A stretch of DNA of 64,000 bases, from NCBI GenBank assembly GCA_022510725.1, contig JAFLSW010000002.1, positions 104,467 through 168,466 on the forward strand, in the 5' to 3' direction. The notes beneath the pieces are model-generated. The model saw nothing but the letters and a program-made list of their open reading frames with translations. It was not told the origin of the DNA and did not search any database. Below, one piece after another: positions 8,111-38,326 of the stretch. The DNA is from Lachnospiraceae bacterium (GTDB lineage Bacteria > Bacillota > Clostridia > Lachnospirales > Lachnospiraceae). Every line of letters begins with the position of its first letter. Position 1 is the stretch's first letter. A program made the translations under genes and the position numbers.

Positions 8111-8246
8111 TATGGTATAATGTTCGAGAAGGGCAGAGTAAAATGACGAGGACGCATATGCCGAACTTGTTCGAGCAGATGTGTGCGAGGGCATTTTACG
8201 AGCGAAGCGATCGAGGAAAACCGAAGGTTTTTCGAGACTCTGCCTT
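8111..8246 (+). repeat. Dispersed structured element, copy A
   Basis: TATGGTATAATGTTCG…GGGCAGAGT…ACTCTGCCT, aligns over ~130 nt with the reverse complement of 37213-37345. Confidence 0.8.
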
Positions 8247-33000: not shown

Positions 33001-35262
33001 CTATAAGCGTACCTTTGTGCCTTTGCTGTCACGCTTTCCGGGTTTTAATTTATTCAGCTCCAATTGCTTCTCTTTATATTCAATGACGGTTTCCACCGCA
33101 TTTAAGGTATAATAGACATTTTCTACATAGTCTCCGTTACCCAGCTTCATACCCCTTACGCCAATGGCACCTTTTTTCTTTTCGGGAATTTCTTCAATGG
33201 GAAATCTTAAGAAATATCCTTCTTTCGTCTGGAATACAATATTGCGGGCATCAATGAGCATCTGAACGCTTACCACCTCGTCTCCGTCAGACAGTTTGGT
33301 GGCGGCAACGGTTCTTTTTGCCACATCAAACTCACCGCCGTCAACAACTTTACACATAGCCTGTTTTGTCACAAATACGATCCGGTACAGGTTGACATCG
33401 CTTTGAGAGCATACAAAGATGAGGTTTTCCTGATCTGACTGGAAGTTGCTGATGTTATCAACAGGCACGCCCTTATCTCTGAATTTTCCAAATGGGATGT
33501 CAGAGACTTTGATGGTATGCATCTGTCCCTGAGCAGTAAACAGGCAGACCTTTCCTGTATTCTTGCAAAGGAATACATAACGGTTTTCCTCGTGAGCCGT
33601 CTCTTTATTCCTTTCATAAGTGGCCGTATCGATGCATCTTGCATAGCCGAACCGGTCCATTAAGAAATAAACATCCATTTCCTCCTGTTTCTTTTCTACA
33701 TAAACCGCTTCTTCTGCATTGGTGATCTCGGTCTTGCGTTTCTCGGAAAAGGCTTTCTTATAACCATCCAATTCCTGGATCAGCACCTGGGTCATGGAGG
33801 AATGACTGGCCAGAATATCTTCGTATTTGTAGATATTTGCCATGGTCTCTTCATGTTCTTTTAACAGGGCATTGACCTCTAAGCCGATCAAACGATATAA
33901 ACGCATATCCAATATGGCATTGGCCTGTTTTTCTGTAAATAAAAGCTGGGTTGCCATGATCTTGGATTCCCTGGACTTAAATTTGATGCCATCTACCACA
34001 CCGTGAACCAGACACTCTTTTGCCATAGCCCGGTCTGTAGACCCCCGCAGGATCTCTATGATCAGGTCGATCAGATTGCATGCTTTGATAAGACCTTCCT
34101 GAATTTCTCGTTTTTCTGTTTCTTTATCTAAGAGGTTTTGATACTTTCTTGTAGCGACTTCAAACTGGAAATCGGCACAATGGCGGAATACATCCTGCAA
34201 GCTTAAGGTTTCGGGGCGTCCCTTTGCCACGGCTAACATATTTACCCCAAAGGTATCCTCCAACTTGGTCTTTTTATAGAGCATATTGATAAACTGCTCT
34301 GTATCCGTATCTTTCCGGCATTCGATGACGATGCGGATGCCTTCCTTGCCGGACTGATTGGTAATATCCACGATATCGTTGGTCTTTTTATTTTCTGCAA
34401 GGGAAGCCACATCCATCAGGAATTTGGAAATATTAGCACCAACCATGGTATAAGGAATCTCAGAGATCACAATATTGACATGACCGTTTTTGCCCTTTTC
34501 CACATCCACTTTTCCCCGAAGCTTGATCTTACCGGTGCCGGTCTCATAGATCTGTAAAAGTTCGTCCTTGTTGCAGACAATACCGCCTGTAGGAAAATCA
34601 GGCCCTTTTACATATTTCATCAGATCCCTGGTGGTTAAAGTGGGATCCTGCATATATGCTTTTAAGCCGTCAATGACCTCGCCCACATTGTGGGGAGGAA
34701 TGCTGGTAGCCATGCCTACCGCAATACCTTCTGCGCCGTTTATGAGCAGATTGGGGATCTTTACAGGCAGGACCGAAGGCTCTTTTTCCGTCTCGTCAAA
34801 GTTGGGAAGAAAATCCACCACATCCTTATCCAGATCGGATAAAAAGGCTTCCTGGGCCACTCTGGCAAGGCGCGCTTCCGTATAACGCATTGCAGCGGGG
34901 CTGTCCCCTTCAATGGAACCGAAATTGCCGTGACCGTCTACTAAGGGCAGACCCTTTTTAAAATCCTGTGCCATAACCACTAAAGCTTCATAAATGGAGC
35001 TGTCACCATGGGGATGATATTTACCCATGGTATCGCCTACGATACGGGCACATTTACGGTAAGGTCTATCATAACGGATGCCCAATTCGTGCATATCATA
35101 TAAAGTACGCCGCTGAACCGGTTTTAAGCCGTCTCTGACATCGGGAAGTGCCCTGGCGATGATCACGCTCATGGCATAGTCGATATAGGACTGCTCCATA
35201 ACCTCGGAATATTCAGTTCTTATGATGGTTTCATTTGTTCCGTTCATTGGTGCCTCCGTCAA
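33001..35262 (-). CDS. Type IIA DNA topoisomerase subunit A (ParC/GyrA family)
   Basis: YAMSVIIARALPDVRDGLKPVQRRTLY; AAMRYTEARL catalytic Tyr; no QRRGGKG-type GyrA box seen. Confidence 0.95.
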   Translation of the reverse strand: MTEAPMNGTNETIIRTEYSEVMEQSYIDYAMSVIIARALPDVRDGLKPVQRRTLYDMHELGIRYDRPYRKCARIVGDTMGKYHPHGDSSIYEALVVMAQDFKKGLPLVDGHGNFGSIEGDSPAAMRYTEARLARVAQEAFLSDLDKDVVDFLPNFDETEKEPSVLPVKIPNLLINGAEGIAVGMATSIPPHNVGEVIDGLKAYMQDPTLTTRDLMKYVKGPDFPTGGIVCNKDELLQIYETGTGKIKLRGKVDVEKGKNGHVNIVISEIPYTMVGANISKFLMDVASLAENKKTNDIVDITNQSGKEGIRIVIECRKDTDTEQFINMLYKKTKLEDTFGVNMLAVAKGRPETLSLQDVFRHCADFQFEVATRKYQNLLDKETEKREIQEGLIKACNLIDLIIEILRGSTDRAMAKECLVHGVVDGIKFKSRESKIMATQLLFTEKQANAILDMRLYRLIGLEVNALLKEHEETMANIYKYEDILASHSSMTQVLIQELDGYKKAFSEKRKTEITNAEEAVYVEKKQEEMDVYFLMDRFGYARCIDTATYERNKETAHEENRYVFLCKNTGKVCLFTAQGQMHTIKVSDIPFGKFRDKGVPVDNISNFQSDQENLIFVCSQSDVNLYRIVFVTKQAMCKVVDGGEFDVAKRTVAATKLSDGDEVVSVQMLIDARNIVFQTKEGYFLRFPIEEIPEKKKGAIGVRGMKLGNGDYVENVYYTLNAVETVIEYKEKQLELNKLKPGKRDSKGTKVRL

Positions 35263-37181
35263 ATGTCAAGCAGCGCTTCGTTGGCGTGCTCATAGATATA
35301 TTTCTTTCTGGGCGGTACCTCTGTACCCATAAGCATTTCTGTGATCTTATCAGCCTGGAAATTGTCATCGATCTCAACCAGCTTTAATTTTCTGGTTTCC
35401 GGATTTAAGGTAGTCTCCCAAAGCTGTTCTGCATCCATTTCTCCCAGACCTTTGTATCGCTGCAGGGTAAAGCTGCCCTTATGAGTCTTACGATATCTTT
35501 CCAAAGCCTTATCGTCATAAAGGTACTCTTCTTTGCCCTTTGCAGGCATAGCCTTATATAAAGGAGGCATAGCAATATATACATGTCCGGAACTGATCAA
35601 TTCCGGCATAAACCGATAAAATAAAGTCAAAAGCAAGGTGGAAATATGGGCACCGTCCACATCCGCATCGGCCATGATGATGATCTTGCCGTAACGAAGC
35701 TTACTGATGTCAAAATCGTTGCCGTAGCCTTCGGAAAAACCGCAGCCAAAGGCATTGATCATGGTCTTGATCTCAGCATTGGCAAGTACCTTATCTATGC
35801 TGGCCTTTTCCACATTTAAGATCTTGCCCCGTATGGGAAGAATCGCCTGATATTTGCGGTTTCTGGCGGTCTTGGCGCTTCCGCCTGCGGAATCGCCCTC
35901 TACGATAAAGATCTCACATTGCTTTGCATCCTTAGACTCGCAGTTTGCCAGCTTTCCGTTGGAATCAAAGGAAAACTTCTGCTTGGTCAGCATGTTGGTC
36001 TTGGCTTTTTCTTCAGTCTTTCTGATCTTTGCCGCCTTTTCCGCACAACTAATGACAGATTTTAAGGTCTCTACATTACGGTCAAAATACCGGACCACCT
36101 CTTCGCCGGTGATCTTGCTGACTACCTTTGCCGCATCCTGATTGTCCAATTTGGTCTTGGTCTGTCCCTCAAAACGAGGATCGGGATGCTTAATGGATAT
36201 AATGGCGGTCATACCGTTACGCACATCCGCACCGGTAAAGTTCTGATCCTTCTCTTTTAAGATGTTTAATTCCCTGGCATAGGTATTGATCACATTGGTA
36301 AAGGAGGATTTAAAACCGGTAATATGGGTCCCGCCCTCCGCATTGTGAATATTGTTACAAAAGCCCATGACATTTTCATGAAACTCATTTACATATTGGA
36401 AAGCACATTCCACAGTAATGCCTTCTGCTTCACCTGTAAAGGAGATCACATCGCTGACAGTTTCCTTGGTGCCGTTCATGGCCTTCACAAAGCCTACGAT
36501 GCCTTCCGGTTCATGGAAAACGGCTTTGTCTGTAATCTCTCCTCTCCTGTCCTCAAATTCAATGGTCAGAGCAGGATTTAAATACGCGGTTTCATGGAGC
36601 CTGCTTTTGATATCATCGGCTTTAAAACGAGTGTGGTCAAAGATCTCGTCATCCGGCATGAAATTTACGGTAGTGCCTGTCTCTTTTGACTTGCCCACAA
36701 CAGGAAGAAGCCCACCGGAAAGCTCTATGGTGGGAATACCTCTTTCATATTTATCCTCGTATACATGTCCGTTTCTGGAAACCCGTACCGTTAAATAGGC
36801 GGATAAAGCATTTACAACAGAGGAACCCACACCATGAAGACCGCCACTGGTCTTATAGGCAGTATCGTCAAACTTGCCTCCTGCATGGAGGGTGGTAAAT
36901 ACCAGACGCTCTGCGCTGATACCCTTTTCATGCATTTCCACGGGAATGCCTCGTCCGTTGTCCACGATGGTGGCGGAACCGTCTGCTTCCAGATACACCT
37001 TGATATTGGAACAAAAGCCTGCCAGATGCTCGTCCACCGCATTGTCTACAATTTCATAAATTAAATGGTTTAGACCCTTGGTTGAAACGCTGCCGATATA
37101 CATACCCGGTCTGACCCGAACTGCCTCCAGGCCTTCCAGCACCTTAATACTGGATGCGTCATAATCTGTAGTCTGTGCCAT
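35259..37181 (-). CDS. Type IIA DNA topoisomerase subunit B (ParE/GyrB family)
   Basis: GHKL ATPase EIVDNAVDEHLAG, SGGLHGVGSSVVNALS; TOPRIM IVEGDSAGGSAK; QRYKGLGEMDAEQLWETT. Confidence 0.96.
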   Translation of the reverse strand: MAQTTDYDASSIKVLEGLEAVRVRPGMYIGSVSTKGLNHLIYEIVDNAVDEHLAGFCSNIKVYLEADGSATIVDNGRGIPVEMHEKGISAERLVFTTLHAGGKFDDTAYKTSGGLHGVGSSVVNALSAYLTVRVSRNGHVYEDKYERGIPTIELSGGLLPVVGKSKETGTTVNFMPDDEIFDHTRFKADDIKSRLHETAYLNPALTIEFEDRRGEITDKAVFHEPEGIVGFVKAMNGTKETVSDVISFTGEAEGITVECAFQYVNEFHENVMGFCNNIHNAEGGTHITGFKSSFTNVINTYARELNILKEKDQNFTGADVRNGMTAIISIKHPDPRFEGQTKTKLDNQDAAKVVSKITGEEVVRYFDRNVETLKSVISCAEKAAKIRKTEEKAKTNMLTKQKFSFDSNGKLANCESKDAKQCEIFIVEGDSAGGSAKTARNRKYQAILPIRGKILNVEKASIDKVLANAEIKTMINAFGCGFSEGYGNDFDISKLRYGKIIIMADADVDGAHISTLLLTLFYRFMPELISSGHVYIAMPPLYKAMPAKGKEEYLYDDKALERYRKTHKGSFTLQRYKGLGEMDAEQLWETTLNPETRKLKLVEIDDNFQADKITEMLMGTEVPPRKKYIYEHANEALLDI

Positions 37182-37212: not shown

Positions 37213-37345
37213 AGGCAGAGACCCTAAAATGCTTCGCATTTCAGGGCTCGCTTCGCTCGTCAAATGTCCGAACAAGCATCTGCTCGAGCAAGCTTGGCAT
37301 CTGCTTGTCCGACCACTTGACTCTGCCCTTTCCGAACATTATACC
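37213..37345 (-). repeat. Dispersed structured element, copy B (upstream of topoisomerase B subunit)
   Basis: Minus strand TATGGTATAATGTTCGGAAAGGGCAGAGTCAAG…GCATTTTAGGGTCTCTGCCT; covariation with copy A. Confidence 0.8.
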
Positions 37346-37366
37346 ATAACTTGGATAAATTTCAAA
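37338..37366 (-). promoter_or_regulatory. Putative promoter driving copy B and the topoisomerase operon
   Basis: Minus strand TTTGAA-N17-TATAAT. Confidence 0.75.
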
Positions 37367-38261: not shown

Positions 38262-38326
38262 CTCTTGTCCGAACAAGCATCTGCTTGTTCGAACGCTTGA
38301 CTCTGCCCTTTACAGACATTATATGG
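38262..38326 (-). repeat. Dispersed structured element, truncated copy C
   Basis: Minus strand ATATAATGTCTGTAAAGGGCAGAGTCAAGCGTTCGAACAAGCAGATGCTTGTTCGGACAAG. Confidence 0.75.

Follow-up and report, generated by a model that had tools for sequence, protein, structure and literature searches.

The structured element between a promoter and the topoisomerase B gene of the window, the 64,000-nucleotide stretch of a Lachnospiraceae genome analysed here, is a MITE-like mobile repeat rather than a riboswitch, and represents the Clostridiales-1 type in a variant that targets promoters. Its fold, its placement and orientation, the prior existence of its targets and the duplication of its flanks are all supported by comparison of sequences. 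An earlier note on this DNA had offered a 5' leader and a structured mobile repeat as alternative identities, and the two are now supported together, in that the mobile repeat becomes the 5' leader.

Copy B, its host promoter and the other copies of the window

The element described first (copy B) lies on the minus strand ahead of a host gene for a type IIA topoisomerase B subunit (ParE-like; 35259–37181, minus strand). The promoter of this gene comprises the -35 box TTTGAA (37361–37366), a 17-bp spacer and an extended -10, TATGG-TATAAT (37338–37348, with TATAAT at 37343–37338), which is also the insertion target. Next come the left terminal sequence CGGAAA (37329–37334; consensus NCGCAA), which in better-preserved copies has a short inverted counterpart, TTGCGG, at the right end, and the 116-nt structured core (37214–37329), matched by the covariance model at 117.3 bits; all of these features are on the minus strand. 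The sequence is thus as the earlier note read it, with a minus-strand TTTGAA-N17-TATAAT followed by GGCAGAG and, at the far end, CTCTGCC. What the note had missed is that the -10 is part of the host gene's promoter and not of the element, and that the window contains a truncated third copy.

Transcription from sigma-A promoters is expected to start 6–8 nt past the -10, here at 37331 or near it. Judged by position relative to the -10, the predicted start is 37331 on the minus strand, 7 nt past the box, so that P1 would lie at the extreme 5' end of the RNA. The copy B RNA is predicted to start AAAGGGCAG and should begin within a few bases of P1.

Copy A, which with its promoter box spans 8111–8244 on the plus strand, consists of the extended -10 of a host promoter, TATGGTATAAT (8111–8121), and a structured core (8130–8244; 97 bits) upstream of an AI-2E family transporter gene. 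The truncated copy C (38267–38323, minus strand) is located between recG and a gene of 257 aa, at a TATAATG sharing bases with the stop codon of recG.

A conserved fold with compensatory change

The 15 full-length copies give a near-gapless alignment of ~116 nt with four helices: a P1 of 7 bp; a P2 of 18 bp, a 2x2 loop, 4 bp, a bulged purine, a further 4 bp and a CUUG loop; a P3 consisting of GC-GAA-GC within the nearly invariant GAGCGAAGCGA; and a P4 of 12 bp that mostly ends in a GNA triloop. On the minus strand of copy B, P1 pairs GGCAGAG (37321–37327) with CTCTGCC (37214–37220), the long P2 arm (37260–37320) carries the apical 2x2 loop, the bulged purine and the CUUG tetraloop (TGC-CAAG-CTTG-CTCG-A-GCA), the almost invariant P3 segment ACGAGCGAAGCGA (37248–37260) holds the GC-GAA-GC mini-hairpin, and P4 is the hairpin GCCCTGAAATGC-GAA-GCATTTTAGGG (37222–37247). 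The predicted folds of copy B (-59.8 kcal/mol, z -7.1) and copy A (-43.3 kcal/mol, z -4.5) are each more stable than all of 200 shuffles.

The compensatory pairing that had been noticed between copies A and B extends to 15 and then to 98 copies. In the 15-copy alignment, 94.2% of cells are paired and 31 of the 47 pairs change on both sides, a result equalled by none of 500 shuffles. Across 98 distinct copies, whose alignment leans toward structure through having been fitted to the model, 94.0% of the cells of the same number of pairs are paired and both-sided change is found at 36/47. Double-changed cells number 577 against 142 in shuffles (0/500), and pairing falls to 35–49% in controls with slid partners. 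Because copies of the element are related, shuffle and strand counts overstate independence and these numbers are indicative, although the size of the covariation effect is not in doubt. Orthologous copies compared by eye (L020/L025 and L172/L109) hold both compensated and broken pairs, which weakens the case for selection by the host after insertion. Short tandem duplications of the 3' end of the element, for example a repeated GGCTCTGCCCGTGACTTGCGGCA, are present at L004, L019, L023 and L284.

Placement and orientation behind -10 boxes

In a set of 92 copies, most of them collected by a pattern scan blind to the promoter, 88 carry TATAAT with at most one mismatch at a fixed position (-14 to -9), 8 nt ahead of the core. 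The consensus of this region in 73 copies is T(A/G)TGNTATAATGTNCGCAA, and the NCG of this region is conserved at 100% for C and 98% for G, whereas the upstream flanks of these copies share nothing but a weak TTG in the position of a -35, at a spacing of 17 bp. The downstream gene is co-directional in 63 of the 69 clear cases and opposed in 6. Random orientation predicts a share equal to that of opposite-strand upstream neighbours, 31/66 (31:35), and the bias relative to this symmetry control has a p of 1.8e-8. The placement of copies relative to genes, on which the earlier note had made its reading depend, is strongly non-random. Promoterless related elements with a longer P1 were also observed at L054, L055, L056 and L060, directly past the T-run of an apparent intrinsic terminator.

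Pre-existing targets and duplicated flanks

Sister species carry TATAATG (or TATATT) without the window's element at the parE, AI-2E and recG-stop loci, so that all three copies of the window lie at a pre-existing TATAATG. Sister species keep the -35 of the parE promoter in the corresponding position whether or not an element is present, and congeners retain both the -35 and the -10 with roughly unchanged spacing; this promoter is free of any element in G003, G004 and G008, has a reduced form in G006, and in G002 and G005 is followed at the same place by a different structured element starting TATAATGTTCACGTTGGCAATGAGC. At the copy A locus, congeners have TATGNTATAATG-like boxes shortly before the transporter gene, and at the copy C locus their recG ends in ...ATATAATGTATTT, with the element absent in both cases. 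The position of copy C at a recG stop codon suggests that target sequence matters, and not promoter activity. Two further observations concern these loci. The structured element, starting TATAATGTNCACGTNGGCAATGAGC, that takes this parE promoter position in G005 (L216) and G002 (L217) is a second promoter-linked one, and is also noted at L061. In relatives, recG runs straight into parE without the 257-aa gene of the window, and the TATAATG at the recG stop is uninterrupted.

Traces of target duplication are found at the other end of the element. A second ATGGTATAAT-like box lies ~17 nt past the core in 12/73 copies (1.8 when shuffled). Similarity between the two flanks of a single copy (4.93) exceeds that between permuted pairs (4.45, sd 0.11; 0/300), as it also does when the comparison is made within two rich genomes (8.42 vs 7.16, sd 0.28; 0/1000). 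Unusual variants appear on both flanks together, TACAAT with TACAAT and CACGG with CACGG, and ATCGTGGTACAATGT is found on both sides of L171 and ATGGTATAATATC on both sides of L142. Most copies show no clear duplication, and where one is seen its length can be put only at ~8–15 nt. Well-kept copies have a short CCGCAA inverted repeat at both ends, of which the CG of the left end is 98–100% conserved and the right end more weakly.

In the richest genome, the second -10 frequently leads into a further small hairpin unit and then a third -10, a pattern resembling successive insertions at one target. In G427 (L278, L350 and L351), a 72-nt double-hairpin unit, TTGACACAGAAGGGCATTGTGTCAAC...GTGCGCTAAAGCGCACGGAAAC, is arranged head to tail with ATGGTATAATG between units. 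Left ends in the three rich genomes number 34, 22 and 8, with none for reversed-pattern controls, and all 64 were traced to copies of the standard type, to forms with deletions, to decayed copies or to the end of a contig. A search from the right end returned known units only and no autonomous copy, and no parent transposon or transposase with matching ends was found among the left, right or RF01699-type ends examined. One inward-facing pair of RF01699-type ends was inspected and turned out to be two ordinary copies flanking a small regulator-like gene.

Distribution in the Lachnospiraceae

By blastn, the window's own genome has ~10 copies, two of eight congeners have 4 and 5, and one other genus has 9, with none in 24 genomes from other families of the same order. 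The covariance model (R1) finds matches, weak ones included, in 79/397 Lachnospiraceae genomes, and its matches in a class-wide sample are confined to this family. A strict 22-base promoter pattern applied to 299 genomes was too narrow for use; the promoter-blind pattern scan of named genomes yielded 80 readable loci, 79 of them confirmed by the covariance model and nearly all titled Lachnospiraceae, Acetatifactor, Roseburia, Blautia, Hungatella or unnamed Clostridiales relatives. Phage and plasmid collections gave no blastn match, and 32 pattern matches in viral contigs were attributed to chance, none being matched by the covariance model. The element is a dispersed, patchy, non-coding, many-copy repeat of the Lachnospiraceae.

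Relationship to Clostridiales-1 RNA and to other small repeats

No Rfam family is present in the window at gathering score. In a permissive scan, copy B aligns end to end with Clostridiales-1 RNA (RF01699, model positions 1–166) at 24.3 bits (E 0.0017), a weak hit against a cut-off of 48, and no match to RF01699 was obtained in the window's own genome at E ≤ 0.001. Intermediates found by both models score 51.7 bits with RF01699, above the cut-off (L063), and 38.3 bits (L061). The earlier description of the element as undescribed thus holds below the RF01699 threshold but overlooks a divergent relative. Matches to microRNAs in the permissive scans were discarded as generic long-hairpin matches.

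Clostridiales-1 was tabulated in 2010 as a probable RNA, neither cis-regulatory nor a switch, and no function was proposed for it in the main text (Weinberg et al., 2010; PMC2864571). RF01699 is present in 160/299 Lachnospiraceae genomes, often in at least 9 copies each. Its boundaries are GATG(CC/TT)(A/G)GGGTCAAAAG ... CTTTTGACCCCAACATC (canonical copies L369–L398, with the match at about position 1501 in each), and it is flanked by AT-rich direct repeats of 7–8 bp, such as ATTTTAT, ATAGTAT and TTACAGAA, with a mean shared length of 4.64 vs 1.24 (sd 0.40; 0/2000). On the strength of these terminal inverted repeats and 7–8 bp duplications, RF01699 appears to be MITE-like too.

The two share a closing P1, a long P2 with a GCUUGC loop and a bulge, a P3, a triloop P4, the bacterial group and a multi-copy habit, although P3 and P4 are smaller in the element and its P3 region is shorter. 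Their ends differ, CCGCAA..TTGCGG in the element and GATG..CATC in RF01699, as do their targets, a duplicated -10 box in the former and varied AT-rich 7–8 bp in the latter. Canonical RF01699 copies lack the element-type promoter and show no gene-orientation bias (14/24 co-directional, 14:10, vs 14/27 in the control). Within the RF01699 architecture, the repeat of the window forms a divergent branch that is bound to promoters, and by the family threshold it is not a member. The openly licensed literature searched, on Lachnospiraceae structured RNAs and MITEs, MITE target duplications, the Pribnow box and Clostridiales-1, contained nothing on the element, on its placement behind promoters or on RF01699 being mobile.

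Bacterial MITEs and small repeats include internally deleted forms and may fold when transcribed; BOX, RUP, Correia and bcr-type repeats are short and non-coding, with inverted-repeat ends, target duplication and many copies. The element resembles these repeats in all such respects, deletion forms included, and differs from them in lying only just past -10 boxes and in one orientation, in its multi-helix fold with strong compensatory evolution, and in its apparent serial insertion at a duplicated -10. Safe-haven elements such as Tn7 (attTn7) and yeast Ty1/Ty3 likewise choose sites of little harm, but the site of the present element is the -10/start region of ordinary promoters. We know of no targeting protein for the element.

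Proposed mechanism and alternative explanations

The best explanation, to which we assign a probability of roughly 70%, is that a non-autonomous MITE-like element targets TATAATG, spares the promoter and ribosome site of its host and enters the transcript as a 5' leader that folds independently. Copy B would be one representative of a non-coding Lachnospiraceae element of ~130–140 bp. Insertion would occur at TATAATG, almost always a host -10, in the orientation that makes the top strand of the element the transcript, and would duplicate the -10-containing target (~8–15 nt). The host would retain its -35, -10, ribosome site and coding sequence, and the element would become the first ~120 nt of the mRNA, a leader predicted to fold on itself, with P1 pairing the predicted 5' end, followed by the long P2 arm, the P3 mini-hairpin and P4. 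This fold would be kept by selection, probably as RNA, whether for the benefit of the host or for the element's own mobility. We infer transposition by a trans-acting transposase, transcription, and an effect on the host gene: a putative DNA transposase preferring TATAATG may mobilise the element in trans, and the leader may either be neutral for expression or stabilise the message by hiding its 5' end. Retrotransposition of the RNA is disfavoured by the invariant CG upstream of the expected start, since an RNA copy would be without it.

A bolder version of the model, which we put forward tentatively and consider somewhat less probable than its negation, holds that the mobile family recognises the -10 region itself, perhaps in the melted state of the open complex, integrates immediately past it and duplicates it, repeatably at one promoter, to give strings of a -10 box and a structured unit. 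Such elements would capture host transcription, and throughout a bacterial family unrelated mRNAs would acquire a folded RNA at their 5' ends.

The alternative that survives best, with perhaps a one-in-five chance, accepts a mobile element but supposes that the fold is kept as single-stranded or cruciform DNA for transposition, and not as RNA. The mobile behaviour and the inverted repeats lying partly outside the predicted RNA agree with it, and GNA triloops and GCGAAGC form exceptionally stable DNA hairpins. The strand on which pairing is kept bears on this choice. Read in the sense of the transcript, G.U occupies 152 cells and A.C 53 (pairs with a G-U consensus left out; copies are related and the count is inflated), whereas this ratio would be reversed or evened out if the other strand, or both strands, had to fold. 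The excess suggests that the fold is kept on the transcript-sense strand, and it favours RNA or the DNA top strand without separating them, as it would not arise from a cruciform but could from one preferred DNA strand. The locking of orientation to transcription and the G(CUUG)C loop, a type that stabilises RNA, also count against a DNA fold.

It is improbable that the element is instead a cis-regulatory leader, a riboswitch or protein-binding site, through which one signal reaches every gene of a dispersed regulon. Its constant position past a promoter and sense to the downstream gene would suit such a role, as would a strong RNA structure whose junction and loop segments hardly vary. Nevertheless, the 30 downstream genes scanned are functionally mixed with no common theme, and such unrelated functions speak against a regulon; in addition, the same genes lack the element in sister species, internal deletion forms with little beyond the ends persist at promoters, and copies A and B have no T-run past the last stem.

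A family of small RNA genes that spreads together with its own extended -10 is more doubtful again. Rfam files the relative RF01699 as 'Gene; sRNA', and the extended -10 and TNCG are almost invariant beside the RNA, but orthologous loci that lack the element already have the -10 and -35, the TATAATG used by copy C lies at the stop codon of recG, no T-run or terminator follows CTCTGCC in copies A and B, and canonical RF01699 copies have no such promoter. Least credible is that pairing is upheld by mutation alone, through template-switching correction of quasi-palindromes without selection, since, near-perfect as the long arms of some copies are (L034, L041), correction would have erased the bulged purine, the 2x2 loop and the 116-nt length that are retained, and the separate helices include a closing stem whose strands are ~100 nt apart.

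Significance

Read as a promoter-targeting MITE-like element, the window's repeat gives the orphan Rfam family Clostridiales-1 RNA an identity as a mobile element, one branch of whose architecture settles only past -10 boxes. It also carries the caution that a promoter followed by strong covariation need not signify a riboswitch. Promoter targeting without gene breakage becomes testable, as does the effect on mRNA stability of a mobile folded 5' leader in dominant gut bacteria.
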